Positions 17,378 to 64,000 of a DNA stretch of 64,000 bases are shown here, piece by piece (the stretch's first letter is position 1; each line of letters starts with the position of its first letter). The position numbers and the translations under genes are program-made. The notes under the pieces were generated by a model that saw only the letters and a list, made by a program, of their open reading frames with translations, was not told the origin of the DNA and made no database searches. Source of the stretch: Arenicola marina (taxonomy: Eukaryota > Annelida > Polychaeta > Arenicolidae); contig OZ025249.1 of NCBI GenBank assembly GCA_964019135.1, forward strand, positions 34,547,759 through 34,611,758, in the 5' to 3' direction.

Positions 17378-17488
17378 GAGTACATACTGACCACGGACAA
17401 GATAATTAATTTAACTGTGAGCAATATGTTGGCATAATTAAGACGGGTTTCTAGTTAACAGTTCACTATGGAATACTTTCATCCAGTG

Positions 17489-17560
17489 TCCCATATCGTC
17501 TAGTGGTTAGGATTCCTGCATTTCACGCAGGCGGCCGGGGTCGATTCCCGGTGAGGGACC
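17489..17560 (+). tRNA. tRNA-Glu(TTC), degenerate edge copy
   Basis: Anticodon TTC, but it has an acceptor-stem mismatch, ATCGTC in the A box, A at loop position 32 and a changed T arm (GGGGTCGATTC). Possibly a pseudogene. Confidence 0.6.
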
Positions 17561-17652
17561 AGATATATTATTTTACTCAGCAAATTCTTTCGTTATTTGA
17601 AATTAACTCCAATCGTAAAAGCTAAGAGGAAAAAATGGAAAACAAAATTAAT

Positions 17653-17703
17653 TGACCCCAACGTGATTTGAACACGCAACCTTCTGATCTGGAGTCAGAC
17701 GCT
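17653..17703 (-). pseudogene. Partial tRNA-Trp
   Basis: The 3' part through the anticodon arm only, cut after CAGACGC. It is followed by a duplicated stretch that leads into the full copy at 17776. Confidence 0.8.
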
Positions 17704-17775
17704 AGTTATTTCAAATTAAACCAACGTTTAGCCTCAAATGGAAAAGTTGACAGTAACAAATGGAAAAAAACCAAT

Positions 17776-17847
17776 TGACCCCGACGTGATTTGAACACGC
17801 AACCTTCTGATCTGGAGTCAGACGCGCTACCGTTGCGCCACGGAGTC
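17776..17847 (-). tRNA. tRNA-Trp(CCA)
   Basis: The 72-nt cloverleaf has acceptor GACTCCG paired with CGGGGTC (one G-T pair), anticodon loop CTCCAGA and B box GTTCAAATC. It resembles other animal tRNA-Trp genes. On the minus strand a run of T lies just past its 3' end. Confidence 0.93.
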
Positions 17848-18063
17848 ACTCGAATGTTCCGATGAATGGTTGTCGCCATGTGGAAAGTTACGAGTGATTA
17901 ATAGATTGGTGCATTGGCGGTTTAAGCCACTATTGTGCACTCATGGGCTCAATCGGGTCAGCAAAGCTACCAAAGTAAAATTTTATTGATGTGTATATTC
18001 AATATTTCGATTCACATTACAACTTCATCATTCGGCACTTTCGTTCAATATCCGCCATTTCAT

Positions 18064-18304
18064 TAGTGGCCTGCGCGACATCTCAGTGGGCTAGAGCGCT
18101 CGCATTGAGTTCACCTGAGAGCCTAACGACACGTGGTTCGATGGTTCGAGCCCTGCTGTGGCCATGTCTGTGTGGTCGCTGGAATAAAGATCCCATGTCT
18201 TTCTTCGTAAAGAGTAAGGGACATAGCTCCACTCTCCCTTCCTTCTGCCATTGACGCGATATGACCAAAAGTGGTTAAAGCGTCCTGAATAACCAACCAA
18301 CCAA
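18064..18304 (+). mobile_element. tRNA-derived SINE with CCAA tail (first copy)
   Basis: The head has an A-box-like CTCAGTGGGCTAGAGC and a B box GGTTCGAGCCC, then a body with TAAAGATCCCATG and GTTAAAGCGTCCTGAATAA, ending in (AACC/CCAA)n. CCGCCATTTCAT flanks both sides (18052-18063 and 18305-18316) and is the target duplication. The same duplication flanks the array copies, so one insertion predates amplification. Most later copies have GAGCAC instead of GAGCCC in the B box. Family name not assigned. Confidence 0.85.
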
Positions 18305-18640
18305 CCGCCATTTCATGACAATTTTAATCACACCATGGATGCCTTTGGTACAATATGAAAGGAATAAAATCATCCAATTGAAAGCAATAGTAATTTTTTG
18401 ATTCTGCAACAGTTGTAATCACAAGACGAACAGTTGTTATTGCAAGATTTCTCTCAATGCATATACTTATTGATTATTTTTCAGCTGGTATAGCACGGCT
18501 GGTCTTTTGCTTTTATTTCACGCTACGGAATTCAATCGTATTTTTTACAACTTTATACAAGTGAAGAAGATACTGACCACGAAAAAGAAAATTAACTGAA
18601 TTGTGTGTGATTATTTTGGCACAATTAAGACGGGTTATTA

Positions 18641-20551
18641 AGTTGTCTACTGCTCCACCATGGGAACTAAGAACTCCAAAAATTATTTTCGATCTGACGA
18701 GATATAATAAATCAGATACAGACCCTGCCCTTTTCCTTGAATTACTCCACCAAGTGAAATTAAACTATTCCACACACACTGCTATATACACTGATGGTTC
18801 AAAGACCTCAAGCAAGGTAGCAGCTGCTGCTGTCATTTTGCAGCACGTTGCTAGCACTAGACTGCCAAATACATGTTCCATCTTTAGTGCTGAGTCTAAA
18901 GCGATTTTATTAGCATTGCAACATATACAATCCTCAGATGATAAAAAATTCATCATTTATTCTGATTCGCTTTCTTGCTTGCAGGCAATCCAACACCAAC
19001 GCTTAGATCACCCATTTATACTTGATATTATCACACATTACAACTACCTACTTGACCGAGACAAAGAAATAATTTTTTGTTGGCTTCCAAGCCACATCGG
19101 TATTGCTGACAATACCCTTGCAGACGCAGAAGCCAAGAAAGCACTTGACCAAGACATTTCCCCAATAAATATACCATATACGGACTTGAAACCACAGATA
19201 AACAAGCACATCACATCTCGGGCAGAAAAGCTGGTCTTCCCAATCAAATAATAAACTAAATAAAATCCAACCAATTATAGGTATCAAACACCCACGGCAA
19301 ACCAATCGTAGAAACGACGTAGTTTTGAGACGACTACGAACAGGACATACTTATTTTACGCACGTACACCTTCTCAAAGGAGATCCTCCCTCATTTTGTA
19401 TTCCATGTCAGCATAATCTTACTGTGGAGCACATCTTATTAAACTGCGTCGATTTTTCACACGTTCGAACAAAATACTTTAGTACACCAGCACTCGCTGA
19501 TCTCTTTAAGTCATTTAAAGATGACACCATTATTAACTTTATCAAAGACATTGGCCTATATTATCAAATATGAATTTCTCGTCGTATATACCAGATATTC
19601 CCAGATATGAGATTAATGTTTCAACTCATTAAACCACAAATATATAATTCATTTTTCTTTGTACATTATTTTCCAGGGTTTTACATTTGATACAATTCAT
19701 GTGATGTACGTTTAAAGCGGGTGTCCAACCTAATTTAATCGCGATCTGCACCGAAAGTTTACATCTTTAAATTCAATTGGCGAGTGTTAACGCTTCGTTT
19801 CGGCCGACTGGTAAGGAGAAAAAAATTAAGGCAACTCGCCCCCAGCAATCTCAAGCAGAGCGCCATTTTGCCGGGAGCAGTGACGCATATTGTGACTATT
19901 CATGTGGCACCGCCTTACGTTATCACTCGCAGAGAGAGAGATCATGGCCGCGATTTACAGATGAACAGCGGCAGTTCCAAGCCGCGCAGTAGCGCAAGAT
20001 CTCAGTGTTTCATAGAAAAGTACTGTCCAAACAAATTGATATACGTCTTGCGACGATTGGCTCCGCAACAATGCCATGATTGGAGTTATAATCGCAGCTC
20101 TTTAGGTTAGCGATGATCACCCGCTATTGTTTTGCTCACACAATAGGCGCAATTTCCGGTTTGAATAAATTAGAGTATCGCCTCCTGATTGGTCAAGCGC
20201 GGACACACCTCCAAAAAGGGCTGCCGCCTGGGTAGGCGGCGAAATCGTGCACGGCGGTCATTTCTAAATTTTATTGTGAGCTATAGATAGGAGGAAAAAT
20301 TCTGTAATTTGGAGGATAAACAATTGGGTATTATATGAATCGGTAAAGCAGCGGTAGAGGCCAGGCTGGCGGTTCCATTTAAATAAACTATTTCAGGATT
20401 TTATCTATGATATCTATTATTTCACTTATGCAACACTTCAGTCTATATTTCAGGGTTTTATCAAGTTTTACTTATTGGAGACTAAATAACCTTTGCATGG
20501 CACGATATGGCCTTACAGGCTAAAATGCCGTTTAAACTATATCAAATCAAA
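18641..20551 (+). mobile_element. LINE fragment 1, RNase H and 3' end
   Basis: A non-LTR element copy. The ORF 18651-19251 encodes an RNase H domain (IYTDGSKT, AESKAI, YSDSLS, WLPSHIG, LADAEAKKAL). After a frame break, a second ORF 19325-19573 carries the Cys/His stretch CIPCQHNLTVEHILLNC typical of I/Nimb-like LINE C-termini. The 3' tail ends in ATCAAATCAAAT. It is broken: the RT is absent and a 661-bp element interrupts it at 19717-20377. The 5' junction at 18641 directly joins array sequence without a target duplication, and the host unit's tRNA pair is missing, so a deletion removed them. Confidence 0.85.
19717..20377. mobile_element. 661-bp unclassified insertion inside LINE 1
   Basis: LINE 1 is interrupted relative to LINE 2 exactly here, with TTTAAA on both sides (19711-19716 and 20378-20383) as likely target duplication. 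The insert begins GCGGGTGTCCAACC and ends GCTGGCGGTTCCA. I see no terminal inverted repeat, no tRNA promoter and no convincing ORF. Confidence 0.65.
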
Positions 20552-20564
20552 TGGCGGTTTAAGC

Positions 20565-22306
20565 AGGAAATGGCTGTACCACAAGGAAGCATTTTATCTG
20601 TCACACTGTTCAGTATTAAGATAAATGATATTGTTAAAAGCATAACACCTAATATTAACCCGTCCCTCTTTGTTGATGACTTTTTAAATGAACTCAGAGG
20701 TATTAATATGCAAACAATACAAGAATATTTACAAATGCTTGACCCTATACATAACCAAGCTCTAAGATTGTGCCTAGGAACCTTCCGCACAACACCCAGG
20801 GAAAGTCTCTATATTGAAGCCAATGAACCTTCCTTATACCTAAGAAGAGAAAAATTGGCGCTTCAATATGCATTAAAACTCAAATCTACACCAAACAATC
20901 CGACATATGAAGACGTATTTCATCCTCAAAACCGTGACCTATTCCTCGACAAACCTACCACAATATCCACATTTGGTATAGGTATCCAAAATATTCTCCA
21001 GAACAGCAACCTATCATTTGATAACATTAGACAATTCCAGTTGTCTACTGCTCCACCATGGGAACTAAGAACTCCAAAAATTATTTTCGATCTGACGAGA
21101 TATAATAAATCAGATACAGACCCTGCCCTTTTCCTTGAATTACTCCACCGAGTGAGATTAAACTATTCCACACACACGGCTATATACACTGATGGCTCAA
21201 AGACCTCGAACAAGGTAGCAGCTGCTGCTGTCATTTTGCAGCTCGTTGCTAGCACTAGACTACCATATACATGTTCCATCTTTAGTGCTGAGTCTAAAGC
21301 GATTTTATTAGCATTGCAATATATACAATCCTCAGATGATAAAAATTTCATCATTTATTCTGATTCGCTTTTTTGCTTGCAGGCAATCCAACACCAACGC
21401 TTAGATCACCCATTTATATTTGATATTATTACGCATTGCAACTACCTACTTGACCGAGACAAAGAAATAATGTTTTGTTGGCTTCCAAGCCACATCGGTA
21501 TTGCTGGCAATACCCTTGCAGACGCAGAAGCCAAGAAAGCACTTGACCAAGACATTTCCCCAATAAATATACCATATACGGACTTGAAACCACAGATAAA
21601 TTAGCACATTACATCTCTGGCAGAAAAGCTGGTCTTCCCAATCAAACAATAAACTAAATAAAATCCAGCCAATTATAGGTATCAAACACCCACGGCAAAC
21701 CAATCGTAGAAACGATGTAGTTTTGAGACGACTACGAACAGGACATACTTATTTTACGCACGTACACCTTCTCAAAGGAGATCCTCCCCCATTTTGTATT
21801 CCATGTCAGCATAATCTTACTGTGGAGCACATCTTATTAAACTGCGTCGATTTTTCACACGTTCGAACAAAATACTTTAGTACACCATCACTCGCTGATC
21901 TCTTTCAATCATTTAAAGATGACACCATTATTAACTTTATCAAAGACATTGGCCTATATTATCAAATATGAATTCCTCGTTGTATATACCAGATATTAAT
22001 ATCAAGTCCTTTTCACATATGAGATTAATGTTTCGACTCATTAAACCCCAAATATATAATTCATTTTTCTTTGTTCATTATTTTCCAGGGTTTTACATTC
22101 GATACAATTCATGTGATGTACGTTTAAATAAACTATTTCAGGGTTTTATCTATGATATCTATTATTTAACGTATGCAACACTTCAGTCTATATTTCAGGG
22201 TTTTATCAAGTTTGACTCATTGGAGACTAAATAACCTTTGCATGGCACGATATGGCCTTACAGTCTAAAATGTCGTTAAAAATAAATTAAATCAAATCAA
22301 ATCAAA
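20565..22306 (+). mobile_element. LINE fragment 2, partial RT, RNase H and 3' end
   Basis: A 5'-truncated LINE of the same family, flanked by the 13-bp duplication TGGCGGTTTAAGC (20552-20564 and 22307-22319). The ORF to 21604 includes the reverse-transcriptase motifs VPQGSILS and FVDDF. An apparent internal deletion follows before DPIHNQALRL, then RNase H (IYTDGSKT, WLPSHIG). An in-frame stop ends this ORF before the Cys/His segment, which continues at 21723-21971. Three TTTCAGGGTTTTA-like repeats lie near 22082, 22133 and 22191, and the tail is (AAATC)n. It is non-functional as it stands. Confidence 0.9.
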
Positions 22307-22726
22307 TGGCGGTTTAAGCCACTATTGGGCACTCATGGGCTCAATCGGATCAGCAAAGCTACCAAAGCAAAATTTTAATCACACCATGGATGCCTTTGGT
22401 ACAATATGAAAGGAATAAAATCATCCAATTAAAAGCAATAGTAAGTTTTCGATTCTGAAACAGTTGTAATCACAAGACGAACAGTTGTTATTGCAAGATT
22501 TCTCTCAATGCATACACTGATTGATTATTTTTCAGCTAGTATAGCACGGCTGGTCTTTTGCTTTGATTTCACGCTACGGAATTCAATCGTATTCTTTACA
22601 ACCTTATAAAAGTGAAGAAGATACTGACCACGAAAAAGATAATTAACTGAATTGTGTGTGATTATTTTGGCACAATTAAGACGGGGTTCAAGTTAAGACT
22701 TTACTATGGAATTCTTACGTTCAGTG

Positions 22727-22798
22727 TCCCATATGGTCTAGTGGTTAGGATTCCTGCCTTTCACGCAGGCGGCCCGGGCTCGATTCCCGGTGTAGGAG
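22727..22798 (+). tRNA. tRNA-Glu(TTC), degenerate
   Basis: It has an acceptor mismatch (TGTAGGA) and a B box changed to GGCTCGATTC; the anticodon is still TTC. Confidence 0.6.
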
Positions 22799-22900
22799 CA
22801 GATATATTTTTTAGGCAGCAAACTCTTTAGTTATTTCAAATTAAGCCACTGTTTGGCCTCAAATGGAAAAGTTGACAGTAACAAATGGGAAAAAACCAAT

Positions 22901-22972
22901 TGACCCCGACGTGATTTAAACACGCAACCTTCTGATATGGAGTCAGACGCGCTACTGTTGCGCCACGGAGTC
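22901..22972 (-). tRNA. tRNA-Trp(CCA), degenerate
   Basis: CCA kept, but the base 3' of the anticodon is changed, the T loop reads TTTAAAT and the D arm has one change. Confidence 0.6.
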
Positions 22973-23792
22973 ACTCGAATGTTCCGATGAATGATTGTCG
23001 CCATGTGGAAAGTTACGAGTGATTAATAGATTGGTGCATTGGGGGTTTAAGCCACTATTGTGCACTCATGGGCTCAATCGGGTCAGCAAAGCTACCAAAG
23101 CAAAATTTTATTGATGTGTATATTCAATATTTCGATTCACATTACAACTTCATCATTCGGTACTTTCGTTCAATATCCGCCATTTCATCAGTGGCCGGCG
23201 CGACAGCTCAGTGGGCTAGAGCGCTCGCATTGAGTTCACCTGAGAGCCTAACGACACGTGGTTCGATGGTTCGAGTCCTGCTTTGGCCATGTCTGTGTGG
23301 CCGCTGGAATAAAGATCCCATGTCTTTCTTCGTAAAGGGTAAGGGACATAGCTCCACTCTCCCTTCCTTCTGCCATTGACGCGATATGACCGAAAGTGGT
23401 TAAAGCGTCCTGAATAATCAACCGACACTTCATGACAATTTTAATCACACCATGGATGCCTTTGGTACAATATGAAAGGAATAAAATCATCCAATTGAAA
23501 TCAATAGTAATTTGTCGATTCTGCAACATTTGTAATCACAAGACGAACAGTTGTTATTGCAAGATGTTTCTCAATGCATATACTTATTGATTATTTTTCA
23601 GCTGGTATAGCACGGCTGGTCTTTTGCTTTTATTTAACGCTACGGAATTCAATCGTATTTTTTACAACCTTATACAAGTGAAGAAGATACTGACCACGAA
23701 AAAGAGAATTAACTGAATTGTGTGTGATTATTTTGGCACAATTAAGACGGGGTTCAAGTTAAGAGTTTACTATGGAATTCTTTCGTTCAGTG

Positions 23793-23864
23793 TCCCATAT
23801 GGTCTAGTGGTTAGGATTCCTGCCTTTCACGCAGGCGGCCCGGGTTCGATTCCCGGTGTGGGAG
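23793..23864 (+). tRNA. tRNA-Glu(TTC), reference copy
   Basis: 72 nt. Acceptor TCCCATA pairs with TGTGGGA, anticodon arm CCTGC-CTTTCAC-GCAGG gives TTC, and the B box is GGTTCGATTCC. A T6 run about 11 nt downstream serves as Pol III terminator. It converges on the tRNA-Trp 102 bp away. It looks functional. Confidence 0.95.
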
Positions 23865-23966
23865 CAGATATATTTTTTAGGCAGCAAACTCTTTAGTTAT
23901 TTCAAATTAAGCCACAGTTTAGCCTCAAATGGAAAAGTTGACAGTAACAAATGGGAAAAAACCAAT

Positions 23967-24038
23967 TGACCCCGACGTGATTTGAACACGCAACCTTCTG
24001 ATCTGGAGTCAGACGCGCTACCGTTGCGCCACGGAGTC
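23967..24038 (-). tRNA. tRNA-Trp(CCA), reference copy
   Basis: Same sequence as 17776-17847. The minus-strand T6 run lies about 6 nt past the 3' end. It looks functional. Confidence 0.95.
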
Positions 24039-24861
24039 ACTCGAATGTTCCGATGAATGATTGTCGCCATGTGGAAAGTTACGAGTGATTAATAGATTGG
24101 TGCATTGGCGGTTTAAGCCACTATTGTGCACTCATGGGCTCAATCGGGTCAGCAAAGTTACCAAAGCAAAATGTTATTGATGTGTATATTCAATATTTCG
24201 ATTCACATTACAACTTCATCATTCGGCACTTTCGTTCAATATCCGCCATTTCATTAGTGGCCGGCGCGACAGCTCAGTGGGCTAGAGCGCTCGCATTGAG
24301 TTCACCTGAGAGCCTAACGACACGTGGTTCGATGGTTCGAGCACTGCTGTGGCCATGTCTGTGTGGTCGCTGGAATAAAGATCCCATGTCTTTCTTCGTA
24401 AAGAGTAAGGGACATAGCTCCACTTTCCCCCATTGACGCGATATGACCAAAAGTGGTTAAAGCGTCCTGAATAACCAACCAACCAACCAACCGCCATTTC
24501 ATGACAATTTTAATCACACCATGGATGCCTTTGGTACAATATGAATAGAATAAAATCATCCAATTGAAATCAATAGTAATTTTTCGATTCTGCAACAGTT
24601 GTAATCACAAGACGAACAGTTGTTATTGCAAGATTTCTCTCAATGCATATACTTATTGATTATTGTTCAGCTGGTATAGCACGGCTGGTCTTTTGCTTTT
24701 ATTTCACGCTACGGAATTCAATCGTATTTTTTACAACCTTATACAAGTGAAGAAGATACTGACCACGAAAAAGAGAATTAACTGAATTGTGTGTGATTAT
24801 TTTGGCACAATTAAGACGGGGTTCAAGTTAAGAGTTTACAATGGAATTCTTTCGTTCAGTG

Positions 24862-24933
24862 TCCCATATGGTCTAGTGGTTAGGATTCCTGCCTTTCACG
24901 CAGGCGGCCCGGGTTCGATTCCCGGTGTGGGAG
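24862..24933 (+). tRNA. tRNA-Glu(TTC)
   Basis: Identical to the copy at 23793. Confidence 0.95.
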
Positions 24934-25035
24934 CAGATATATTTTTTAGGCAGCAAACTCTTTAGTTATTTCAAATTAAGCCACTGTTTAGCCTCAAATG
25001 GAAAAGTTGACAGTAACAAATGGGAAAAAACCAAT

Positions 25036-25107
25036 TGACCCCGACGTGATTTGAACACGCAACCTTCTGATCTGGAGTCAGACGCGCTACCGTTGCGCCA
25101 CGGAGTC
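25036..25107 (-). tRNA. tRNA-Trp(CCA)
   Basis: Identical to the copy at 23967. Confidence 0.95.
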
Positions 25108-25930
25108 ACTCGAATGTTCCGATGAATGATTGTCGCCATGTGGAAAGTTACGAGTGATTAATAGATTGGTGCATTGGCGGTTTAAGCCACTATTGTGCAC
25201 TCATGGGCTCAATCGGGTCAGCAAAGTTACCAAAGCAAAATGTTATTGATGTGTATATTCAATATTTCGATTCACATTACAACTTCATCATTCGGCACTT
25301 TCGTTCAATATCCGCCATTTCATTAGTGGCCGGCGCGACAGCTCAATGGGCTAGAACGCTCGCATTGAGTTCACCTGAGAGCCTAACGACACGTGGTTCG
25401 ATGGTTCGAGCACTGCTATGGCCATGTCTGTGTGGTCGCTGGAATAAAGATCCCATGTCTTTCTTCGTAAAGAGTAAGGGACATAGCTCCACTTTCCCCC
25501 ATTGACGCGATATGACCAAAAGTGGTTAAAGCGTCCTGAATAACCAACCAACCAACCAACCGCCATTTCATGACAATTTTAATCACACCATGTATGCTTT
25601 TGGTACAATATGAAAGGAATAAAATCATCCAATTGAAATCAATAGTAATTTTTCGATTCTGCAACAGTTGTAATCACAAGACGAACAGTTGTTATTGCAA
25701 GATTTCTCTCAATGCATATACTTATTGATTATTGTTCAGCTGGTATAGCACGGCTGGTCTTTTGTTTTTATTTCACGCTACGGAATTCAATCGTATTTTT
25801 TACAACCTTATACAAGTGAAGAAGATACTGACCACGAAAAAGAGAATTAACTGAATTGTGTGTGATTATTTTGGCACAATTAAGACGGGGTTCAAGTTAA
25901 GAGTTTACAATGGAATTCTTTCGTTCAGTG

Positions 25931-26002
25931 TCCCATATGGTCTAGTGGTTAGGATTCCTGCCTTTCACGCAGGCGGCCCGGGTTCGATTCCCGGTGTGGG
26001 AG
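25931..26002 (+). tRNA. tRNA-Glu(TTC)
   Basis: As 23793. Confidence 0.95.
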
Positions 26003-26104
26003 CAGATATATTTTTTAGGCAGCAAACTCTTTAGTTATTTCAAATTAAGCCACTGTTTAGCCTCAAATGGAAAAGTTGACAGTAACAAATGGGAAAAAAC
26101 CAAT

Positions 26105-26176
26105 TGACCCCGACGTGATTTGAACACGCAACCTTCTGATCTGGAGTCAGACGCGCTACCGTTGCGCCACGGAGTC
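26105..26176 (-). tRNA. tRNA-Trp(CCA)
   Basis: As 23967. Confidence 0.95.
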
Positions 26177-26999
26177 ACTCGAATGTTCCGATGAATGATT
26201 GTCGCCATGTGGAAAGTTACGAGTGATTAATAGATTGGTGCATTGGCGGTTTAAGCCACTATTGTGCACTCATGGGCTCAATCGGGTCAGCAAAGCTACC
26301 AAAGTAAAATTTTATTGATGTGTATATTCAATATTTCGATTCACATTACAACTTCATCATTCGGCACTTTCGTTCAATATCCGCCATTTCATCGGTGGCA
26401 GGCGCGACAGCTCAGTGGGCTAGAGCGCTCGCATTGAGTTCACCTGAGAGCCTAACGACAAGTGGTTCGATGGTTCGAGCCCTGCTGTGGCCATGTCTGT
26501 GTGGTCGCTGGAATAAAGATCCCATGTCTTTCTTCGTAAAGAGTAAGGGACATAGCTCCACTTTCCCCCATTGACGCGATATGACCAAACGTGGTTAAAG
26601 CGTCCTGAATAACCAACCAACCAACCAACCGCCATTTCATGACAATTTTAATCACACCATGGATGCCTTTGGTACAATATGAAAGGAATAAAATCATCCA
26701 ATTGAAATCAATAGTAATTTTTCGATTCTGCAACAGTTGTAATCACAAGACGAACAGTTGTTATTGCAAGATTTCTCTCAATGCATATACTTATTGATTA
26801 TTGTTCAGCTGGTATAGCACGGCTGGTCTTTTGCTTTTATTTCACGCTACGGAATTCAATCGTATTTTTTACAACCTTATACAAGTGAAGAAGATACTGA
26901 CCACGAAAAAGAGAATTAACTGAATTGTGTGTGATTATTTTGGCACAATTAAGACGGGGTTCAAGTTAAGAGTTTACAATGGAATTCTTTCGTTCAGTG

Positions 27000-27071
27000 T
27001 CCCATATGGTCTAGTGGTTAGGATTCCTGCCTTTCACGCAGGCGGCCCGGGTTCGATTCCCGGTGTGGGAG
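27000..27071 (+). tRNA. tRNA-Glu(TTC)
   Basis: As 23793. Confidence 0.95.
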
Positions 27072-27173
27072 CAGATATATTTTTTAGGCAGGACACTCTT
27101 TAGTTATTTCAAATTAAGCCACTGTTTAGCCTCAAATGGAAAAGTTGACAGTAACAAATGGGAAAAAACCAAT

Positions 27174-27245
27174 TGACCTCGACGTGATTTGAACACGCAA
27201 CCTTCTGATCTGGAGTCAGACGCGCTACCGTTGCGCCACGGAGTC
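27174..27245 (-). tRNA. tRNA-Trp(CCA), acceptor mismatch
   Basis: One base change breaks a pair in the acceptor stem (CGAGGTC); otherwise as 23967. Confidence 0.85.
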
Positions 27246-28068
27246 ACTCGAATGTTCCGATGAATGATTGTCGCCATGTGGAAAGTTACGAGTGATTAAT
27301 AGATTGGTGCATTGGCGGTTTAAGCCACTATTGTGCACTCATGGGCTCAATCGGGTCAGCAAAGTTACCAAAGCAAAATGTTTTTGATGTGTATATTCAA
27401 TATTTCGATTCACATTACAACTTCATCATTCGGCACTTTCGTTCAATATCCGCCATTTCATTAGTGGCCGGGGCGACAGCTCAGTGGGCTAGAGCGCTCG
27501 CATTGAGTTCACCTGAGAGCCTAACGACACGTGGTTCGATGGTTCGAGCACTGCTGTGGCCATGTCTGTGTGGTCGCTGGAATAAAGATCCCATGTCTTT
27601 CTTCGTAAAGAGTAAGGGACATAGCTCCACTTTCCCCCATTGACGCGATATGACCAAAAGTGGTTAAAGCGTCCTGAATAACCAACCAACCAACCAACCG
27701 CCATTTCATGACAATTTTAATCACACCATGGATGCCTTTGGTACAATATGAAAGGAATAAAATCATCCAATTGAAATCAATAGTAATTTTTCGATTCTGC
27801 AACAGTTGTAATCACAAGACGAACAGTTGTTATTGCAAGATTTCTCTCAATGCATATACTTATTGATTATTGTTCAGCTGGTATAGCACGGCTGGTCTTT
27901 TGCTTTTATTTCACGCTACGGAATTCAATCGTATTTTTTACAACCTTATACAAGTGAAGAAGATACTGACCACGAAAAAGAGAATTAACTGAATTGTGTG
28001 TGATTATTTTGGCACAATTAAGACGGGGTTCAAGTTAAGAGTTTACAATGGAATTCTTTCGTTCAGTG

Positions 28069-28140
28069 TCCCATATGGTGTAGTGGTTAGGATTCCTGCC
28101 TTTCACGCAGGCGGCCCGGGTTCGATTCCCGGTGTGGGAG
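28069..28140 (+). tRNA. tRNA-Glu(TTC), A-box variant
   Basis: GGTGTAG replaces GGTCTAG in the A box/D arm, shared with 33377. Confidence 0.88.
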
Positions 28141-28242
28141 CAGATATATTTTTTAGGCAGCAAACTCTTTAGTTATTTCAAATTAAGCCAAAGTTTAGCC
28201 TCAAATGGAAAAGTTGACAGTAACAAATGGGAAAAAACCAAT

Positions 28243-28314
28243 TGACCCCGACGTGATTTGAACACGCAACCTTCTGATCTGGAGTCAGACGCGCTACCGT
28301 TGCGCCACGGAGTC
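28243..28314 (-). tRNA. tRNA-Trp(CCA)
   Basis: As 23967. Confidence 0.95.
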
Positions 28315-29755: not shown

Positions 29756-29842
29756 CAGATATAGTTTTTAGGCAGCAAACCCTTTTGTTATTTCAAATTA
29801 AGCCACTGTTTAGCCTCAAATGGAAAAGTTGACAGTACACGC

Positions 29843-51994: not shown

Positions 51995-52066
51995 TCCCAT
52001 ATGGTCTAGTGGTTAGGATTCCTGCCTTTCACGCAGGCGGCCCGGGTTCGATTCCCGGTGTGGGAG
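51995..52066 (+). tRNA. tRNA-Glu(TTC)
   Basis: As 23793. Confidence 0.95.
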
Positions 52067-52168
52067 CAGATATATTTTTTAGGCAGCAAACTCTTTAGTT
52101 ATTTCAAATTAAGCCACTGTTTAGCCTCAAATGGAAAAGTTGACAGTAACAAATGGGAAAAAACCAAT

Positions 52169-52240
52169 TGACCCCGACGTGATTTGAACACGCAACCTTC
52201 TGATCTGGAGTCAGACGCGCTACCGTTGCGCCACGGAGTC
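52169..52240 (-). tRNA. tRNA-Trp(CCA)
   Basis: As 23967. Confidence 0.95.
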
Positions 52241-53613: not shown

Positions 53614-53684
53614 TCCCATATGGTCTAGTGGTTAGGATTCTGCCTTTCACGCAGGCGGCCCGGGTTCGATTCCCGGTGTGGGAG
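53614..53684 (+). tRNA. tRNA-Glu(TTC), B type, intact acceptor
   Basis: Has the 1-nt anticodon-arm deletion but keeps TCCCATA, so the deletion arose before the acceptor change. Confidence 0.65.
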
Positions 53685-53771
53685 CAGATATAGTTTTTAG
53701 GCAGCAAACTCTTTAGTTATTTCAAATTAAGCCACTGTTTAGCCTCAAATGGAAAAGTTGACAGTACACGA

Positions 53772-53824
53772 ACACGCAACCTTCTGATCTGGAGTCAGAC
53801 GCGCTACCGTTGCGCCACGGAGTC
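53772..53824 (-). pseudogene. tRNA-Trp, 3' end deleted
   Basis: As 29843. Confidence 0.88.
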
Positions 53825-54647
53825 ACTCGAATGTTCCGATGAATGATTGTCGCCATGTGGAAATTTACGAGTGATTAATAGATTGGTGCATTGGCGGTTT
53901 AAGCCACTATTGTGCACTCATGAACTCAATCGGGTCAGCAAAGTTACCAAAGCAAAATGTTATTGATGTGTATATTCAATATTTCGATTCACATTACAAC
54001 TTCATCATTCGGCACTTTCGTTCAATATCCGCCATTTCATTAGTGGCCGGCGCGACAGCTCAGTGGGCTAGAGCGCTCGCATTGAGTTCACCTGAGAGCC
54101 TAACGACGCGTGGTTCGATGGTTCGAGCACTGCTATGGCCATGTCTGTGTGGTCGCTGGAATAAAGATCCCATGGGTTTCTTCGTAAAGAGTAAGGGACA
54201 TAGCTCCACTTTCCCCCATTGACGCGATATGACCAAAAGTGGTTAAAGCGTCCTGAATAACCAACCAACCAACCAACCGCCATTTCATGACAATTTTAAT
54301 CACACCATGTATGCTTTTGGTACAATATGAAAGGAATAAAATCATCCAATTGAAATCAATAGTAATTTGTCGATTCTGCAACAGTTGTAATCACAAGACG
54401 AACAGTTGTTATTGCAAGATTTCTCTCAATGCATATACTTATTGATTATTGTTCAGCTGGTATAGCACGGCTGGTCTTTTGCTTTTATTTCACGCTACGG
54501 AATTCAGTCGTATTTTTTACAACCTTATACAAGTGAAGAAGATACTGACCACGAAAAAGAGAATTAACTGAATTGTGGTTGATTATTTTGGCACAATTAA
54601 GACGGGGTTCAAGTTAAGAGTTTACAATGGAATTCTTTCGTTCAGTG

Positions 54648-54719
54648 TCCCATATGGTCTAGTGGTTAGGATTCCTGCCTTTCACGCAGGCGGCCCGGGT
54701 TCGATTCCCGGTGTGGGAG
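54648..54719 (+). tRNA. tRNA-Glu(TTC)
   Basis: As 23793. Confidence 0.95.
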
Positions 54720-54821
54720 CAGATATATTTTTTAGGCAGCAAACTCTTTAGTTATTTCAAATTAAGCCACTGTTTAGCCTCAAATGGAAAAGTTGACAGT
54801 AACAAATGGGAAAAAACCAAT

Positions 54822-54893
54822 TGACCCCGACGTGATTTGAACACGCAACCTTCTGATCTGGAGTCAGACGCGCTACCGTTGCGCCACGGAGTC
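54822..54893 (-). tRNA. tRNA-Trp(CCA)
   Basis: As 23967. Confidence 0.95.
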
Positions 54894-55712
54894 ACTCGAA
54901 TGTTCCGATGAATGATTGTCGCCATGTGGAAAGTTACGAGTGATTAACAGATTGGTGCATTGGCAGTTTAAGCCACTATTGTGCACTCATGGGCTCAATC
55001 GGGTCAGCAAAGCTACCAAAGTAAAATTTTATTGATGTGTATATTCAATATTTAGATTCACATTACAACTTCATCATTCGGCACTTTCGTTCAATATCCG
55101 CCATTTCATCAGTGGCCGGCGCGACAGCTCAGTGGGCTAGAGCGCTCGCATTGAGTTCACCTGAGAGCCTAACGACACGTGGTTCGATGGTTCGAGCACT
55201 GCTGTGGCCATGTCTGTGTGGTCGCTGGAATAAAGATCCCATGTCTTTCTTCGTAGAGAGTAAGGGACATAGCTCCACTTTGCCCCATTGACGCGATATG
55301 ACCAAAAGTGGTTAAAGCGTCCTGAATAACCAACCAACCAACCGCCATTTCATGACAATTTTAATCACACCATGGATGCCTTTGGTACAATATGAAAGGA
55401 ATAAAATCATCCAATTGAAATCAATAGTAATTTTTCGATTCTGCAACAGTTGTAATCACAAGACGAACAGTTGTTATTGCAAGATTTCTCTCAATGCATA
55501 TACTTATTGATTATTGTTCAGCTGGTATAGCACGGCTGGTCTTTTGCTTTTATTTCACGCTACGGAATTCAATCGTATTTTTTACAACCTTATACAAGTG
55601 AAGAAGATACTGACCACGAAAAAGAGAATTAACTGAATTGTGTGTGATTATTTTGGCACAATTAAGACGGGGTTCAAGTTAAGAGTTTACAATGGAATTC
55701 TTTCGTTCAGTG

Positions 55713-55784
55713 TCCCATATGGTCTAGTGGTTAGGATTCCTGCCTTTCACGCAGGCGGCCCGGGTTCGATTCCCGGTGTGGGAG
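55713..55784 (+). tRNA. tRNA-Glu(TTC)
   Basis: As 23793. Confidence 0.95.
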
Positions 55785-55886
55785 CAGATATATTTTTTAG
55801 GCAGCAAACTCTTTAGTTATTTCAAATTAAGCCACTGTTTAGCCTCAAATGGAAAAGTTGACAGTAACAAATGGGAAAAAACCAAT

Positions 55887-55958
55887 TGACCCCGACGTGA
55901 TTTGAACACGCAACCTTCTGATCTGGAGTCAGACGCGCTACCGTTGCGCCACGGAGTC
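55887..55958 (-). tRNA. tRNA-Trp(CCA)
   Basis: As 23967. Confidence 0.95.
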
Positions 55959-56781
55959 ACTCGAATGTTCCGATGAATGATTGTCGCCATGTGGAAAGTT
56001 ACGAGTGATTAATAGATTGGTGCATTGGCGGTTTAAGCCACTATTGTGCACTCATGGGCTCAATCGGGTCAGCAAAGTTACCAAAGCAAAATGTTTTTGA
56101 TGTGTATATTCAATATTTCGATTCACATTACAACTTCACCATTCGGCACTTTCGTTCAATATCCGCCATTTCATTAGTGGCCGGCGCGACAGCTCAGTGG
56201 GCTAGAGCGCTCGCATTGAGTTCACCTGAGAGCCTAACGACACGTGGTTCGATGGTTCGAGCACTGCTGTGGCCATGTCTGTGTGGTCGCTGGAATAAAG
56301 ATCCCATGTCTTTCTTCGTAAAGAGTAAGGTACATAGCTCCACTTTCCCCCATTGACGCGATATGACCAAAAGTGGTTAAAGCGTCCTGAATAACCAACC
56401 AACCAACCAACCGCCATTTCATGACAATTTTAATCACACCATGGATGCCTTTGGTACAATATGAAAGGAATAAAATCATCCAATTGAAATCAATAGTAAT
56501 TTTTCGATTCTGCAACAGTTGTAATCACAAGACGAACAGTTGTTATTGCAAGATTTCTCTCAATGCATATACTTATTGATTATTGTTCAGCTGGTATAGC
56601 ACGGCTGGTCTTTTGCTTTTATTTCACGCTACGGAATTCAATCGTATTTTTTACAGCCTTATACAAGTGAAGAAGATACTGACCACGAAAAAGAGAATTA
56701 ACTGAATTGTGTGTGATTATTTTGGCACAATTAAGACGGGGTTCAAGTTAAGAGTTTACAATGGAATTCTTTGGTTAAGTG

Positions 56782-56853
56782 TCCCATATGGTCTAGTGGT
56801 TAGGATTCCTGCCTTTTACGCAGGCGTCCCGGGTTCGATTCCCGGTGTGGGAG
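56782..56853 (+). tRNA. tRNA-Glu body with TTT (Lys) anticodon
   Basis: The anticodon loop reads CTTTTAC, so positions 34-36 are TTT instead of TTC. A second change (GCGTCCC for GCGGCCC) lies in the variable region. Acceptor, D and T arms and the T6 terminator are otherwise those of 23793. Confidence 0.85.
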
Positions 56854-56955
56854 CAGATATATTTTTTAGGCAGCAAACTCCTTGGTTATTTCAAATTAAG
56901 CCACTGTTTAGCCTCAAATGGAAAAGTTGACAGTAACAAATGGGAAAAAACCAAT

Positions 56956-57027
56956 TGACCCCGACGTGATTTGAACACGCAACCTTCTGATCTGGAGTCA
57001 GACGCGCTACCGTTGCGCCACGGAGTC
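56956..57027 (-). tRNA. tRNA-Trp(CCA)
   Basis: As 23967. Confidence 0.95.
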
Positions 57028-57107
57028 ACTCGAATGTTCCGATGAATGATTGTCGCCATGTGGAAAGTTACGAGTGATTAATAGATTGGTGCATTGGCGG
57101 TTTAAGC

Positions 57108-57227
57108 ATTATTTCAGGGTTTTATCAAGTTCGACATAAAAAGTCATAACTTTGCACGGCACGATATGGCCTTACAGGCTAAAATGCCGTTAACAACTAA
57201 TCAAATCAAAATCAAAATCAAATCAAA
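57108..57227 (+). mobile_element. LINE fragment 3, 120-bp 3' end only
   Basis: A severely 5'-truncated copy beginning at ATTATTTCAGGGTTTTATC and ending in an (AAATC)n-type tail. It is flanked by TGGCGGTTTAAGC at 57095-57107 and 57228-57240, the same site as LINE 2. Sequence differences show it is a separate insertion. Confidence 0.92.
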
Positions 57228-57997
57228 TGGCGGTTTAAGCCACTATTGTGCACTCATGGGCTCAATCGGGTCAGCAAAGTTACCAAAGCAAAATGTTATT
57301 GATGTGTATATTCAATATTTCGATTCACATTACAACTTCATCATTCGGCACTTTCGTTCAATATCCGCCATTTCATTAGTGGCCGGCGCGACAGCTCAGT
57401 GGGCTAGAGCGCTCGCATTGAGTTCACCTGAGAGCCTAACGACACGTGGTTCGATGGTTCGAGCACTGCTGTGGCCATGTCTGTGTGGTCGCTGGAATAA
57501 AGATCCCATGTCTTTCTTCGTAAAGAGTAAGGGACATAGCTCCACTTTCCCCCATTGACGCGATATGACCAAAAGTGGTTAAAGCGTCCTGAATAACCAA
57601 CCAACCAACCAACCGCCATTTCATGACCATTTTAATCACACCATGTATGCCTTTGGTACAATATGAAAGGAATAAAATCATCCAATTGAAATCAATAGTA
57701 ATTTGTCGATTCTGCAACAGTTGAAATCACAAGACGAACAGTTGTTATTGCAAGATTTCTCTCAATGCATATACTTATTGATCATTTTTCAGCTGGTATA
57801 GCACGGCTGGTCTTTTGCTTTTATTTCACGCTACGGAATACGGTGGATCAAATTCAATCGTATTTTTTACAACCTTATACAAGTGAAGAAGATACTGACC
57901 ACGAAAAAGAGAATTAACTGCATTGTGTGTGATTATTTTGGCACAATTAAGGCGGGGTTCAAGTTAAGAGTTTACTATGGAATTCTTTCGTTCAGTG

Positions 57998-58068
57998 TCC
58001 CATATGGTCTAGTGGTTAGGATTCTGCCTTTCACGCAGGCGGCCCGGGTTCGATTCCCGGTGTGGGAG
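57998..58068 (+). tRNA. tRNA-Glu(TTC), B type, intact acceptor
   Basis: As 53614. Confidence 0.65.
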
Positions 58069-58155
58069 CAGATATAGTTTTTAGGCAGCAAACTCTTTAG
58101 TTATTTCAAATTAAGCCACTGTTTAGCCTCAAATGGAAAAGTTGACAGTACACGA

Positions 58156-58208
58156 ACACGCAACCTTCTGATCTGGAGTCAGACGCGCTACCGTTGCGCC
58201 ACGGAGTC
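58156..58208 (-). pseudogene. tRNA-Trp, 3' end deleted
   Basis: As 29843. Confidence 0.88.
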
Positions 58209-60118
58209 ACTCGGATTTTCCGATGAATGATTGTCGCCATGTGGAAAGTTACGAGTGATTAATAGATTGGTGCATTGGCGGTTTAAGCCACTATTGTGCA
58301 CTCATGGGCTCAATCGGGTCAGCAAAGTTACCAAAGCAAAATGTTTTTGATGTGTATATTCAATATTTCGATTCACATTACAACTTCATCATTCGGCACT
58401 TTCGTTCAATATCCGCCATTTCATTAGTGGCCGGCGCGACAGCTCAGTGGGCTAGAGCGCTCGCATTGAGTTCACCTGAGAGCCTAACGACACGTGGTTC
58501 GATGGTTCGAGCACTGCTGTGGCCATGTCTGTGTGGTCGCTGGAATAAAGATCCCATGTCTTTCTTCGTAAAGAGTAAGGGACATAGCTCCACTTTCCCC
58601 CATTGACGCGATATGACCAAAAGTGGTTAAAGCGTCCTGAATAACCAACCAACCAACCAACCGCCATTTCATGACAATTTTAATCACACCATGGATGCCT
58701 TTGGTACAATATGAAAGGAATAAAATCATCCAATTGAAATCAATAGTAATTTTTCGATTCTGCAACAGTTGTAATCACAAGACGAACAGTTGTTATTGCA
58801 AGATTTCTCTCAATGCATATACTTATTGATTATTGTTCAGCTGGTATAGCACGGCTGGTCTTTTCCTTTTATTTCACGCTACGGAATTCAATCGTATTTT
58901 TTACAACCTTATACAAGTGAAGAAGATACTGACCACGAAAAAGAGAATTAACTGAATTGTGTGTGATTATTTTGGCACAATTAAGACGGGGTACGCATTG
59001 AGTTCACCTGAGAGCCTAACAACACGTGGTTCGATGGTTCGAGCACTGCTGTGGCCATGTCTGTGTGGTCGCTGGAATAAAGATCCGATGTCTTTCTTCG
59101 TAAAGAGTAAGGGACATAGCTCCACTTTCCCCCATTGACGCGATATGACCAAAAGTGGTTAAAGCGTCCTGAATAACCAACCAACCAACCAACCGCCATT
59201 TCATGACAATTTTAATCACACCATGGATGCCTTTGGTTCAATATGAAAGGAATAAAATCATCCAATTGAAATCAATAGTAATTTTTCGATTCTGCAACAG
59301 TTGTAATCACAAGACGAACAGTTGTTATTGCAAGATTTCTCTCAATGCATATACTTATTGATTATTGTTCAGCTGGTATAGCACGGCTGGTCTTTTGCTT
59401 TTATTTCACGCTACGGAATTCAATCGTATTTTTTACAACCTTATACAAGTGAAGAAGATACTGACCACGAAAAAGAGAATTAACTGAATTGTGTGTGATT
59501 AATTTGGCACAATTAAGACGGGGTACGCATTGAGTTCACCTGAGAGCCTAACGACACGTGGTTCGATGGTTCGAGCACTGCTGTGGCCATGTCTGTGTGG
59601 TCGCTGGAATAAAGATCCCATGTATTTCTTCGTAAAGAGTAAGGGACATGGCTCCACTCTCCCTTCCTTCTGCCATTGACGCGATATGACCAAAAGTGGT
59701 TAAAGCGTCCTGAATAACCAACCAACCAACCAACCGCCATTTCATGACCATTTTAATCACACCATGTATGCCTTTGGTACAATATGAAAGGAATAAAATC
59801 ATCCAATTGAAATCAATAGTAATTTGTCGATTCTGCAACAGTTGAAATCACAAGACGAACAGTTGTTATTGCAAGATTTCTCTCAATGCATATACTTATT
59901 GATCATTTTTCAGCTGGTATAGCACGGCTGGTCTTTTGCTTTTATTTCACGCTACGGAATACGGTGGATCAAATTCAATCGTATTTTTTACAACCTTATA
60001 CAAGTGAAGAAGATACTGACCACGAAAAAGAGAATTAACTGCATTGTGTGTGATTATTTTGGCACAATTAAGACGGGGTTCAAGTTAAGAGTTTACTATG
60101 GAATTCTTTCGTTCAGTG

Positions 60119-60189
60119 TCTCATATGGTCTAGTGGTTAGGATTCTGCCTTTCACGCAGGCGGCCCGGGTTCGATTCCCGGTGTGGGAG
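60119..60189 (+). tRNA. tRNA-Glu(TTC), B type
   Basis: As 29685. Confidence 0.6.
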
Positions 60190-60276
60190 CAGATATAGTT
60201 TTTAGGCAGCAAACTCTTTAGTTATTTCAAATTAAGCCACTGTTTAGCCTCAAATGGAAAAGTTGACAGTACACGA

Positions 60277-60329
60277 ACACGCAACCTTCTGATCTGGAGT
60301 CAGACGCGCTACCGTTGCGCCACGGAGTC
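60277..60329 (-). pseudogene. tRNA-Trp, 3' end deleted
   Basis: As 29843. Confidence 0.88.
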
Positions 60330-61707
60330 ACTCGAATGTTCCGATGAATGATTGTCGCCATGTGGAAAGTTACGAGTGATTAATAGATTGGTGCATTGGC
60401 GGTTTAAGCCACTATTGTGCACTCATGGGCTCAATCGGGTCAGCAAAGTTACCAAAGCAAAATGTTATTGATGTGTATATTCAATATTTCGATTCACATT
60501 ACAACTTCATCATTCGGCACTTTCGTTCAATATCCGCCATTTCATTAGTGGCCGGCGCGACAGCTCAGTGGGCTAGAGCGCTCGCATTGAGTTCACCTGA
60601 GAGCCTAACGACACGTGGTTCGATGGTTCGAGCACTGCTGTGGCCATGTCTGTGTGGTCGCTGGAATAAAGATCCGATGTCTTTCTTCGTAAAGAGTAAG
60701 GGACATAGCTCCACTTTCCCCCATTGACGCGATATGACCAAAAGTGGTTAAAGCGTCCTGAATAACCAACCAACCAACCAACCGCCATTTCATGACAATT
60801 TTAATCACACCATGGATGCCTTTGGTTCAATATGAAAGGAATAAAATCATCCAATTGAAATCAATAGTAATTTTTCGATTCTGCAACAGTTGTAATCACA
60901 AGACGAACAGTTGTTATTGCAAGATTTCTCTCAATGCATATACTTATTGATTATTGTTCAGCTGGTATAGCACGGCTGGTCTTTTGCTTTTATTTCACGC
61001 TACGGAATTCAATCGTATTTTTTACAACCTTATACAAGTGAAGAAGATACTGACCACGAAAAAGAGAATTAACTGAATTGTGTGTGATTAATTTGGCACA
61101 ATTAAGACGGGGTACGCATTGAGTTCACCTGAGAGCCTAACGACACGTGGTTCGATGGTTCGAGCACTGCTGTGGCCATGTCTGTGTGGTCGCTGGAATA
61201 AAGATCCCATGTATTTCTTCGTAAAGAGTAAGGGACATGGCTCCACTCTCCCTTCCTTCTGCCATTGACGCGATATGACCAAAAGTGGTTAAAGCGTCCT
61301 GAATAACCAACCAACCAACCAACCGCCATTTCATGACCATTTTAATCACACCATGTATGCCTTTGGTACAATATGAAAGGAATAAAATCATCCAATTGAA
61401 ATCAATAGTAATTTGTCGATTCTGCAACAGTTGAAATCACAAGACGAACAGTTGTTATTGCAAGATTTCTCTCAATGCATATACTTATTGATCATTTTTC
61501 AGCTGGTATAGCACGGCTGGTCTTTTGCTTTTATTTCACGCTACGGAATACGGTGGATCAAATTCAATCGTATTTTTTACAACCTTATACAAGTGAAGAA
61601 GATACTGACCACGAAAAAGAGAATTAACTGCATTGTGTGTGATTATTTTGGCACAATTAAGACGGGGTTCAAGTTAAGAGTTTACTATGGAATTCTTTCG
61701 TTCAGTG

Positions 61708-61778
61708 TCTCATATGGTCTAGTGGTTAGGATTCTGCCTTTCACGCAGGCGGCCCGGGTTCGATTCCCGGTGTGGGAG
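61708..61778 (+). tRNA. tRNA-Glu(TTC), B type
   Basis: Copy of 60119 at +1,589 bp. Confidence 0.6.
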
Positions 61779-61865
61779 CAGATATAGTTTTTAGGCAGCA
61801 AACTCTTTAGTTATTTCAAATTAAGCCACTGTTTAGCCTCAAATGGAAAAGTTGACAGTACACGA

Positions 61866-61918
61866 ACACGCAACCTTCTGATCTGGAGTCAGACGCGCTA
61901 CCGTTGCGCCACGGAGTC
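61866..61918 (-). pseudogene. tRNA-Trp, 3' end deleted
   Basis: Copy of 60277 at +1,589 bp. Confidence 0.88.
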
Positions 61919-62741
61919 ACTCGAATGTTCCGATGAATGATTGTCGCCATGTGGAAAGTTACGAGTGATTAATAGATTGGTGCATTGGCGGTTTAAGCCA
62001 CTATTGTGCACTCATGGGCTCAATCGGGTCAGCAAAGTTACCAAAGCAAAATGTTATTGATGTGTATATTCAATATTTCGATTCACATTACAACTTCATC
62101 ATTCGGCACTTTCGTTCAATATCCGCCATTTCATTAGTGGCCGGCGCGACAGCTCAGTGGGCTAGAGCGCTCGCATTGAGTTCACCTGAGAGCCTAACGA
62201 CACGTGGTTCGATGGTTCGAGCACTGCTATGGCCATGTCTGTGTGGTCGCTGGAATAAAGATCCCATGTCTTTCTTCGTAAAGAGTAAGGGACATAGCTC
62301 CACTTTGCCCCATTGACGCGATATGACCAAAAGTGGTTAAAGCGTCCTGAATAACCAACCAACCAACCAACCGTCATTTCATGACAATTTTAATCACACC
62401 ATGGATGCCTTTGGTACAATATGAAAGGAATAAAATCATCCAATTGAAATCAATAGTAATTTTTCGATTCTGCAACAGTTGTAATCACAAGACGAACAGT
62501 TGTTATTGCAAGATTTCTCTCAATGCATATACTTATTGATTATTGTTCAGCTGGTATAGCACGGCTGGTCTTTTGCTTTTATTTCGCGCTACGGAATTCA
62601 ATCGTATTTTTTACAACCTTATACAAGTGAAGAAGATACTGACCACGAAAAAGAGAATTAACTGAATTGTGTGTGATTATTTTGGCACAATTAAGACGGG
62701 GTTCAAGTTAAGAGTTTACAATGGAATTCGTTCGTTCAGTG

Positions 62742-62813
62742 TCCCATATGGTCTAGTGGTTAGGATTCCTGCCTTTCACGCAGGCGGCCCGGGTTCGATT
62801 CCCGGTGTGGGAG
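62742..62813 (+). tRNA. tRNA-Glu(TTC)
   Basis: As 23793. Confidence 0.95.
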
Positions 62814-62915
62814 CAGATATATTTTTTAGGCAGCAAACTCTTTAGTTATTTCAAATTGAGCCACTGTTTAGCCTCAAATGGAAAAGTTGACAGTAACAAA
62901 TGGGAAAAAACCAAT

Positions 62916-62987
62916 TGACCCCGACGTGATTTGAACACGCAACCTTCTGATCTGGAGTCAGACGCGCTACCGTTGCGCCACGGAGTC
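62916..62987 (-). tRNA. tRNA-Trp(CCA)
   Basis: As 23967; the last complete copy before the edge. Confidence 0.95.
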
Positions 62988-64000
62988 ACTCGGATGTTCC
63001 GATGAATGATTGTCGCCATGTGGAAAGTTACGAGTGATTAATAGATTGGTGCATTGGCGGTTTAAGCCACTATTGTGCACTCATGGGCTCAATCGGGTCA
63101 GCAAAGTTACCAAAGCAAAATGTTTTTGATGTGTATATTCAATATTTCGATTCACATTACAACTTCATCATTCGGCACTTTCGTTCAATATCCGCCATTT
63201 CATTAGTGGCCGGCGCGACAGCTCAGTGAGCTAGAGCGCTCGCATTGAGTTCACCTGAGAGCCTAACGACACGTGGTTCGATGGTTCGAGCACTGCTGTG
63301 GCCATGTCTGTGTGGTCGCTGGAATAAAGATCCCATGTCTTTCTTCGTAAAGAGTAAGGGACATAGCTCCACTTTCCCCCATTGACGCGATATGACCAAA
63401 AGTGGTTAAAGCGTCCTGAATAACCAACCAACCAACCAACCGCCATTTCATGACAATTTTAATCACACCATGGATGCCTTTGGTACAATATGAAAGGAAT
63501 AAAATCATCCAATTGAAATCAATAGTAATTTTTCGATTCTGCAACAGTTGTAATCACAAGACGAACAGTTGTTATTGCAAGATTTCTCTCAATGCATATA
63601 CTTATTGATTATTGTTCAGCTGGTATAGCACGGCTGGTCTTTTGCTTTTATTTCACGCTACGGAATTCAATCGTATTTTTTACAACCTTATACAAGTGAA
63701 GAAGATACTGACCACGAAAAAGAGAATTAACTGAATTGTGTGTGATTATTTTGGCACAATTAAGACGGGGTACGCATTGAGTTCACCTGAGAGCCTAACG
63801 ACACGTGGTTCGATGGTTCGAGCACTGCTGTGGCCATGTCTGTGTGGTCGCTGGAATAAAGATCCCATGTATTTCTTCGTAAAGAGTAAGGGACATGGCT
63901 CCACTCTCCCTTCCTTCTGCCATTGACGCGATATGACCAAAAGTGGTTAAAGCGTCCTGAATAACCAACCAACCAACCAACCGCCATTTCATGACCATTT

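Follow-up and report, generated by a model that had tools for sequence, protein, structure and literature searches.

We describe a long array of transfer RNA (tRNA) genes that begins in a 64,000-nucleotide window of the genome of the annelid Arenicola marina (contig OZ025249.1, here C2; the window is C2:34547759-34611758). The array is a macrosatellite of about 157 kb, whose standard unit carries a tail-to-tail pair of genes, tRNA-Glu(TTC) and tRNA-Trp(CCA). Judging from sequence comparison, we favour the explanation that this heterotypic tandem array would work as a gene-dosage reservoir, in the manner of ribosomal DNA (rDNA), and give it a probability of about 0.62. The spacers have diverged by some 3-4% between subarrays, while the tRNA consensus has stayed nearly constant, which favours a function that has been kept.

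Extent, gene content and relatives of the Glu/Trp array

Coordinates follow the numbering of the window, which we carried on through the next 140 kb as extended coordinates. When the reference unit (23793-24861) was compared with the window by BLAST, its matches tiled 22.3-64.0 kb, with a lone unit at 17.4-18.6 kb. The window covers only the first part of the array, which, counted from the first unit, measures about 157 kb and ends near extended coordinate ~173,971 (C2 ~34,721,729). An earlier interpretation, made from the letters of the window alone and called here the sequence-only reading, had proposed about 46 kb of 1,069-bp units; units of that kind are present, but they are less uniform than described, the extent was underestimated, and the stretch at 17,384-18,644 holds a single degenerate unit that stands apart from the main array. 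Inside the array, orientation flips at a run of 200 N, which is taken as an assembly gap; the units beyond it are mostly in the opposite orientation, and inserts are also present. Tandem Repeats Finder (TRF) detected no tandem repeat with a period of 500 bp or less inside the array. The main array has a GC content of 42% within the window.

ARAGORN found 62 tRNA genes in the window, 36 of Glu type on the plus strand (34 Glu, one Lys(ttt) and one reported as undetermined) and 26 Trp on the minus strand; 61 tRNA matches exceeded the Rfam gathering threshold. The convergent arrangement described by the sequence-only reading is borne out. The gap, which it put at about 102 bp, is 100 bp by ARAGORN ends in 25 of 26 pairs (214 bp in the remaining one), and a run of at least five T begins no more than 8 bases past the gene end in 34/36 Glu and 26/26 Trp genes. 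If these T runs terminate transcription, the Glu and Trp transcripts would finish within the gap without overlapping. The commonest sequence is shared exactly by 20 Glu and 22 Trp copies, close to the 23 and 24 or so that had been counted as intact. Cloverleaf score, T-run terminator and conserved sequence, the marks of a functional gene, are present in the window copies and in the consensus. The repetition by itself rules out chance. Over the extended array, BLAST gave 121 Glu matches, two of them partial: 61 have the commonest sequence, the anticodon reads TTT instead of TTC in 17, and 25 lack one base of the anticodon arm.

The genome searched comprises 867 Mb in 762 contigs. Allowing up to three mismatches, the Glu body matched 96 times, vs. 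0 for a reversed-pattern control; 93 of these lie in the C2 array, and C1, C12 and C13 have one apiece. By gene count, the C2 array is the main locus of the Glu-TTC sequence. The Trp search returned at least 11 copies, all on C2. C1 and C13 each have a lone Glu gene whose flanks, read over 1.1 kb each, are unrelated but whose body is identical to that of the array gene; because of this identity despite unrelated surroundings, the Glu body is probably the working sequence. Their trailers differ from those of the array, so that array and single-copy output, although identical in the mature body, could be separated by their precursors. The copy on C12 is part of a single Glu/Trp unit, 3.0% from the main consensus and circularly permuted. 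We considered and rejected the idea that it represents the ancestral locus: parts of its SINE (short interspersed element) lie on either side of the tRNA pair, together with the duplication seen in the array, so the unit has to have come from a tandem or circular form. It suggests that a circular or tandem intermediate has existed.

We took a census of the units of the main array between 22.7 and 145.7 kb, with N removed. Among its 100 units, 85 are distinct in sequence. The sequence-only reading had assumed a uniform repeat; a standard unit indeed exists, but only 24/100 units are exactly 1,069 bp long, the others measuring between 914 and 2,169 bp; duplications of half units also occur. A Glu gene with a 1-nt deletion occurs in 24/100 units and a Glu body with a Lys anticodon in 17/100. 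A further class has a truncated Trp gene; in the example read, about 37 bp are gone, taking with them the 3′ end of the gene and its terminator. The deleted Glu genes score 48-53 bits in Rfam, compared to 62.9 for the common form, and since these values still exceed the cut-off of 29 bits, calling them broken is a judgement based on the lost stem base. Exact multi-unit runs are repeated (e.g. units 14-15-16-17 and 64-65). The most probable source of this pattern is unequal exchange together with block duplication. Damaged copies have been multiplied along with the rest of the array, as in a satellite.

The spacer of the standard unit holds a tRNA-derived SINE at unit positions 467-700, with the tRNA-like head, tail and target-site duplication that are hallmarks of such elements. 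Exact GCCATTTCAT is found in 85/96 contexts 5′ of the SINE and in 126/136 contexts after (AACC)n; because the same duplication flanks the SINE in most units, it was probably inserted once, before amplification. The earlier proposal of a SINE with its own A and B boxes stands only as regards the presence of the element: in 134 plus-strand copies, half units included, the B box is intact in 17 (GGTTCGAGCCC) and changed in 116 (GGTTCGAGCAC), with another form in one. The position changed in most array SINEs is C61, which we take to be a critical base of the B box. The form with CCC is seen in the minus-strand copies, in both SINEs of the C12 stretch and in a few dispersed SINEs. The label of a composite satellite of RNA polymerase III (Pol III), with a working SINE promoter, therefore finds no support, and an active SINE transcription unit is unsupported for most copies. 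Recombination between SINEs as the origin of the tandem arrangement is likewise unsupported, the target-site duplication around the SINE being the same in most units.

Tandem tRNA arrays are found at other loci of this genome. Several isotypes lie in arrays at no fewer than four loci: Glu/Trp on C2, Cys/Arg/Tyr on C3, Asp on C5 and Glu-CTC/Asp on C12, with seven isoacceptors shown in arrays; about two units of each of the last three were read (3.0 kb on C3, 2.2 kb each on C5 and C12). The C3 array, revealed by a tRNA family search in which 63 of 81,695 candidates were scored, has a period of about 1,336 bp and at least 29 Cys copies; its unit has Cys(GCA) on the plus strand and Arg(ACG) on the minus strand, convergent and 93-94 bp apart by Rfam ends, and an intron-containing Tyr(GTA) on the minus strand. 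An Asp pattern matched 243 times genome-wide, the matches listed being all in the C5 and C12 arrays, the first with Asp alone in its unit and the second with Glu(CTC) and Asp. Changed tRNA copies seem to have been amplified in the C12 array too. BLAST matches between the units of these three arrays and that of C2 are confined to tRNA genes or edges. In addition, two tRNA-Ser(TGA) genes (L038/L039; C7:43713200 and C7:43744800) lie about 31 kb apart in opposite orientation and are 95.6% identical over 365 bp.

Constraint on the tRNA sequences and the rival explanations

To gauge constraint, we set the main-array consensus against four outgroup copies (the inverted subarray, two distal groups and the C12 copy), with terminator columns omitted; two degenerate edge copies, the first unit and the last plus-strand unit, were excluded from this primary test. 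With ties not counted, and C12 represented by its permuted unit only, 1/509 tRNA sites differed, vs. 110/3458 other sites (p 8e-6), and by column 1/144 vs. 75/896 (p 2e-4). It should be noted that the count is sensitive to the handling of ties. When these were broken arbitrarily, one run gave 3/509 vs. 127/3479 (p 4e-5; columns 3/144 vs. 91/896, p 8e-4) and a rerun 4/509 vs. 111/3479 (p 1e-3; columns 4/144 vs. 76/896, p 0.017).

Several observations weigh against a gene-dosage reservoir. Adding the edge copies weakens the contrast, both with ties not counted (7/793 vs. 159/5234, p 2e-4; columns 7/144 vs. 100/896, p 0.018) and with arbitrary ties (12/793 vs. 165/5255, p 0.009; columns p 0.26); the changed tRNA sites number 5/143 in the first unit and 1/141 in the last plus-strand unit. 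The p values of all these comparisons are optimistic, because they share columns and history. Polymorphism within the main array is not significantly depleted in tRNA columns (19/144 vs. 175/896, p 0.08), nor was it in an earlier split of the array by region, and the contrast between polymorphism and divergence, computed with arbitrary-tie counts, gave p 0.058. Purifying selection on individual copies inside the array was considered as well and was not significant. The Trp gene is truncated in 24/100 main-array units, and the Trp counts outside the window rest on presence, with intactness assumed. Lastly, where zebrafish has distinct maternal isodecoders, the dispersed Glu genes here do not differ from the array gene. 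Our reading of the sequence data is that constraint would act on the consensus, with single broken copies being tolerated and edge copies left to decay.

In the mechanism we propose for the reservoir, the SINE would have entered the spacer once, and the units, one at a time or several together as a block, would have multiplied afterwards; with its B box changed, the SINE would be a passenger. Unequal crossing over would maintain a high copy number, and selection would bear on how many copies work, not on individual ones. Pol III would use the array genes when tRNA is needed in bulk, for which oocytes or early embryos are the likeliest setting, and ordinary cells would be served by dispersed single genes. 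That the array supplies the egg is our best guess, made by analogy.

The strongest competitor, unlikely in our view but to be taken seriously, is a selfish or neutral macrosatellite in which the tRNA genes are mostly silent passengers and dispersed genes do the work. Such a satellite would account for the amplification of all three altered classes (truncated Trp, deleted Glu base and changed anticodon, in 24, 24 and 17 of the 100 units, respectively) and for tRNA columns without significant depletion of polymorphism. The identical Glu genes on C1 and C13 could do that work, and most tissues of Arabidopsis keep a Ser/Tyr/Tyr cluster silent, according to the available excerpt of its description (PMC12308677). 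It fits poorly, however, with a tRNA consensus kept between the subarrays and the C12 copy while spacers drift, or with the terminators retained in the window copies, and three more tRNA arrays in the same genome are hard to attribute to chance passengers. The sequence-only reading had set a major supply of two isotypes against a satellite carrying intact genes as passengers. Each half finds support, the first in the 93 of 96 Glu matches located here and in the kept consensus, the second in the amplification of decayed copies, and it looks as though both apply at once, a functional reservoir being upheld by satellite-like turnover.

We consider it improbable that the array is an insulator, boundary or chromatin-structural element that needs B boxes bound by TFIIIC and not the tRNA product. 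The tRNA tandem repeat at human 1q23.3 binds CTCF and has been proposed as a boundary, as stated in the part of that report available to us (PMC4041453), but conservation here goes beyond the B boxes to span tRNA bodies and terminators, and most plus-strand SINEs have a changed B box. Inflation of the array by repeated or mis-joined units in the assembly, to which the 200-N run at the orientation flip and the exact repetition of some blocks might point, is very improbable given that 85 of the 100 units are distinct, that one unit, diverged from the rest, is present on a different contig and that other isotypes are arrayed too, and collapse would be likelier than inflation.

A broader proposal extends the gene-dosage reservoir to the genome: much of the tRNA gene set might lie in rDNA-like heterotypic arrays with recurrent tail-to-tail pairs, which would provide bulk supply to the egg and act as a nursery of new tRNAs, and the Glu-to-Lys tRNA (at least 17 copies) may be charged with lysine. 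We regard this as possible, though doubtful as a whole. The arrays could be such a nursery because, as we propose, selection sees total dosage only. The excerpt available of a study in a human system reports that a UUU anticodon moved into other tRNAs gives them lysine identity (PMC9976931), and for that reason the anticodon-shifted class is not necessarily harmful; other eukaryotes are known to have undergone anticodon shifts (PMC3923123). If true, this would be a natural change of tRNA identity through array turnover. Tandem tRNA arrays have been reported from few animals, and here several arrays, dispersed genes with identical bodies, broken and shifted unit classes and a permuted unit occur together in one genome; the anticodon-shifted class and the permuted C12 copy are the most interesting details. 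The genome thus lends itself to testing if eggs are supplied from repetitive tRNA loci and if redundant arrays give rise to new tRNA identities.

Feature coordinates and neighbouring sequences

Table 1. Features of the Glu/Trp array and of related loci (window numbering unless another locus is named).
Feature	Position	Strand	Details or evidence
Isolated outlying unit	17384..18644	+	degenerate Glu 17489-17560; duplicated Trp 3′ piece; intact Trp 17775-17848 (-); SINE with GGTTCGAGCCC B box
Non-array insertion, ~3.7 kb, between outlying unit and main array	18645..22306	.	two non-LTR (long terminal repeat) retrotransposon fragments
Main tandem array	22307..64000, on to extended ~173,971	+	unit matches
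Standard 1,069-bp unit, reference	23793..24861	+	BLAST tiling
tRNA-Glu(TTC) of reference unit	23793..23864	+	20 identical bodies in window
tRNA-Glu T6 terminator	23873..23878	+	
tRNA-Trp T6 terminator (A6 on plus strand)	23956..23961	-	
tRNA-Trp(CCA) of reference unit	23967..24038	-	22 identical bodies in window
5′ target-site duplication GCCATTTCAT	24245..24254	+	
tRNA-derived SINE, (AACC)n tail, B box GGTTCGAGCAC	24259..24492	+	
3′ target-site duplication GCCATTTCAT	24493..24502	+	
Extra half unit, example	29092..29684	+	unit positions 500-1069, begins within SINE
Damaged unit, example	43529..44559	+	Glu without one anticodon-stem base; Trp without 3′ end and terminator
Glu-bodied gene with TTT (Lys) anticodon	56782..56853	+	sole such gene in window
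Circularly permuted Glu/Trp unit, single	L019 4766-5722 (C12)		two small deletions, broken inside SINE
C12 array stretch	L043 1-2201		Glu(CTC); Asp with D- and T-arm changes; truncated Asp

The retrotransposon fragments that separate the outlying unit from the main array have reverse transcriptase/RNase H reading frames at 18577-19251 and 20486-21604, measured from stop to stop. Among the 120 protein matches listed of 496, most are unnamed, the named ones being ribonuclease HI and hypothetical protein; those with a named organism include a Solemya velum gill symbiont (44%) and Trichonephila clavipes (37%).

Upstream of the array, the window contains a foldback element (16284-17044) with four pairs of inverted-repeat arms, 93-98% complementary, and CGGAA/TTCCG repeats. 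A long reading frame at 12165-15902 combines low-density lipoprotein (LDL)-receptor A, leucine-rich repeat and rhodopsin-type seven-transmembrane domains, and is what we take to be a GRL101-like receptor. Its best-scoring match shows 28% identity over 71% of the query; the best-scoring named one, from Acanthaster planci, shows 25%. Just upstream is an 867-codon reading frame (9246-11849) with no Pfam match at E 0.001. The window opens with a 63-bp minisatellite (1-1817; 28.8 copies, 98% match), one frame of which encodes a 21-residue peptide repeat, and a 44-bp tandem repeat follows at 2563-3092 (12 copies, 99% match).

Comparison with known systems

The comparisons made here draw on excerpts of the reports cited. 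Tandem tRNA arrays have been described in Hydractinia and Nematostella, and are called unusual outside Entamoeba (PMC11067881); convergent pairs, a co-amplified SINE and broken or anticodon-shifted classes, all present in A. marina, are not mentioned in the available part of that account. A literature search found no Glu/Trp array with a SINE, though one may nevertheless have been published. As in Entamoeba, units of one to several tRNA isotypes form long tandem arrays at several loci (PMC2652664). In E. histolytica, however, complex short tandem repeats lie between the genes, where TRF detects none of period up to 500 bp here, and almost all tRNA genes are arrayed in that species (PMC2652664), as against the seven isoacceptors shown in arrays in the worm.

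The macrosatellite also resembles the human tRNA variable number tandem repeat at 1q23.3, which consists of near-identical tRNA-containing units (98% in human) and whose parts conserved with mouse are the tRNA genes and a 24-bp CTCF-site sequence (PMC4041453). The human unit is GC-rich, 7.3 kb long and bound by CTCF, contains several tRNA genes and is present in 9-43 copies (PMC4041453), whereas the array described here has a unit of about 1 kb that is not GC-rich at 42%, and more than 100 Glu genes. With zebrafish and Xenopus it shares the occurrence of highly repeated tRNA genes alongside isolated single copies (PMC11417395, PMC11500080, PMC2888827). In Xenopus and Danio, the two members of an adjacent pair almost always point the same way (PMC2888827), in contrast to the tail-to-tail arrangement of Glu/Trp and Cys/Arg. 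In the Glu/Trp array, tRNA genes and spacers recur head to tail, with copies that number in the tens to hundreds and are nearly identical; the array belongs to a known but rare kind, of which it is a new member.

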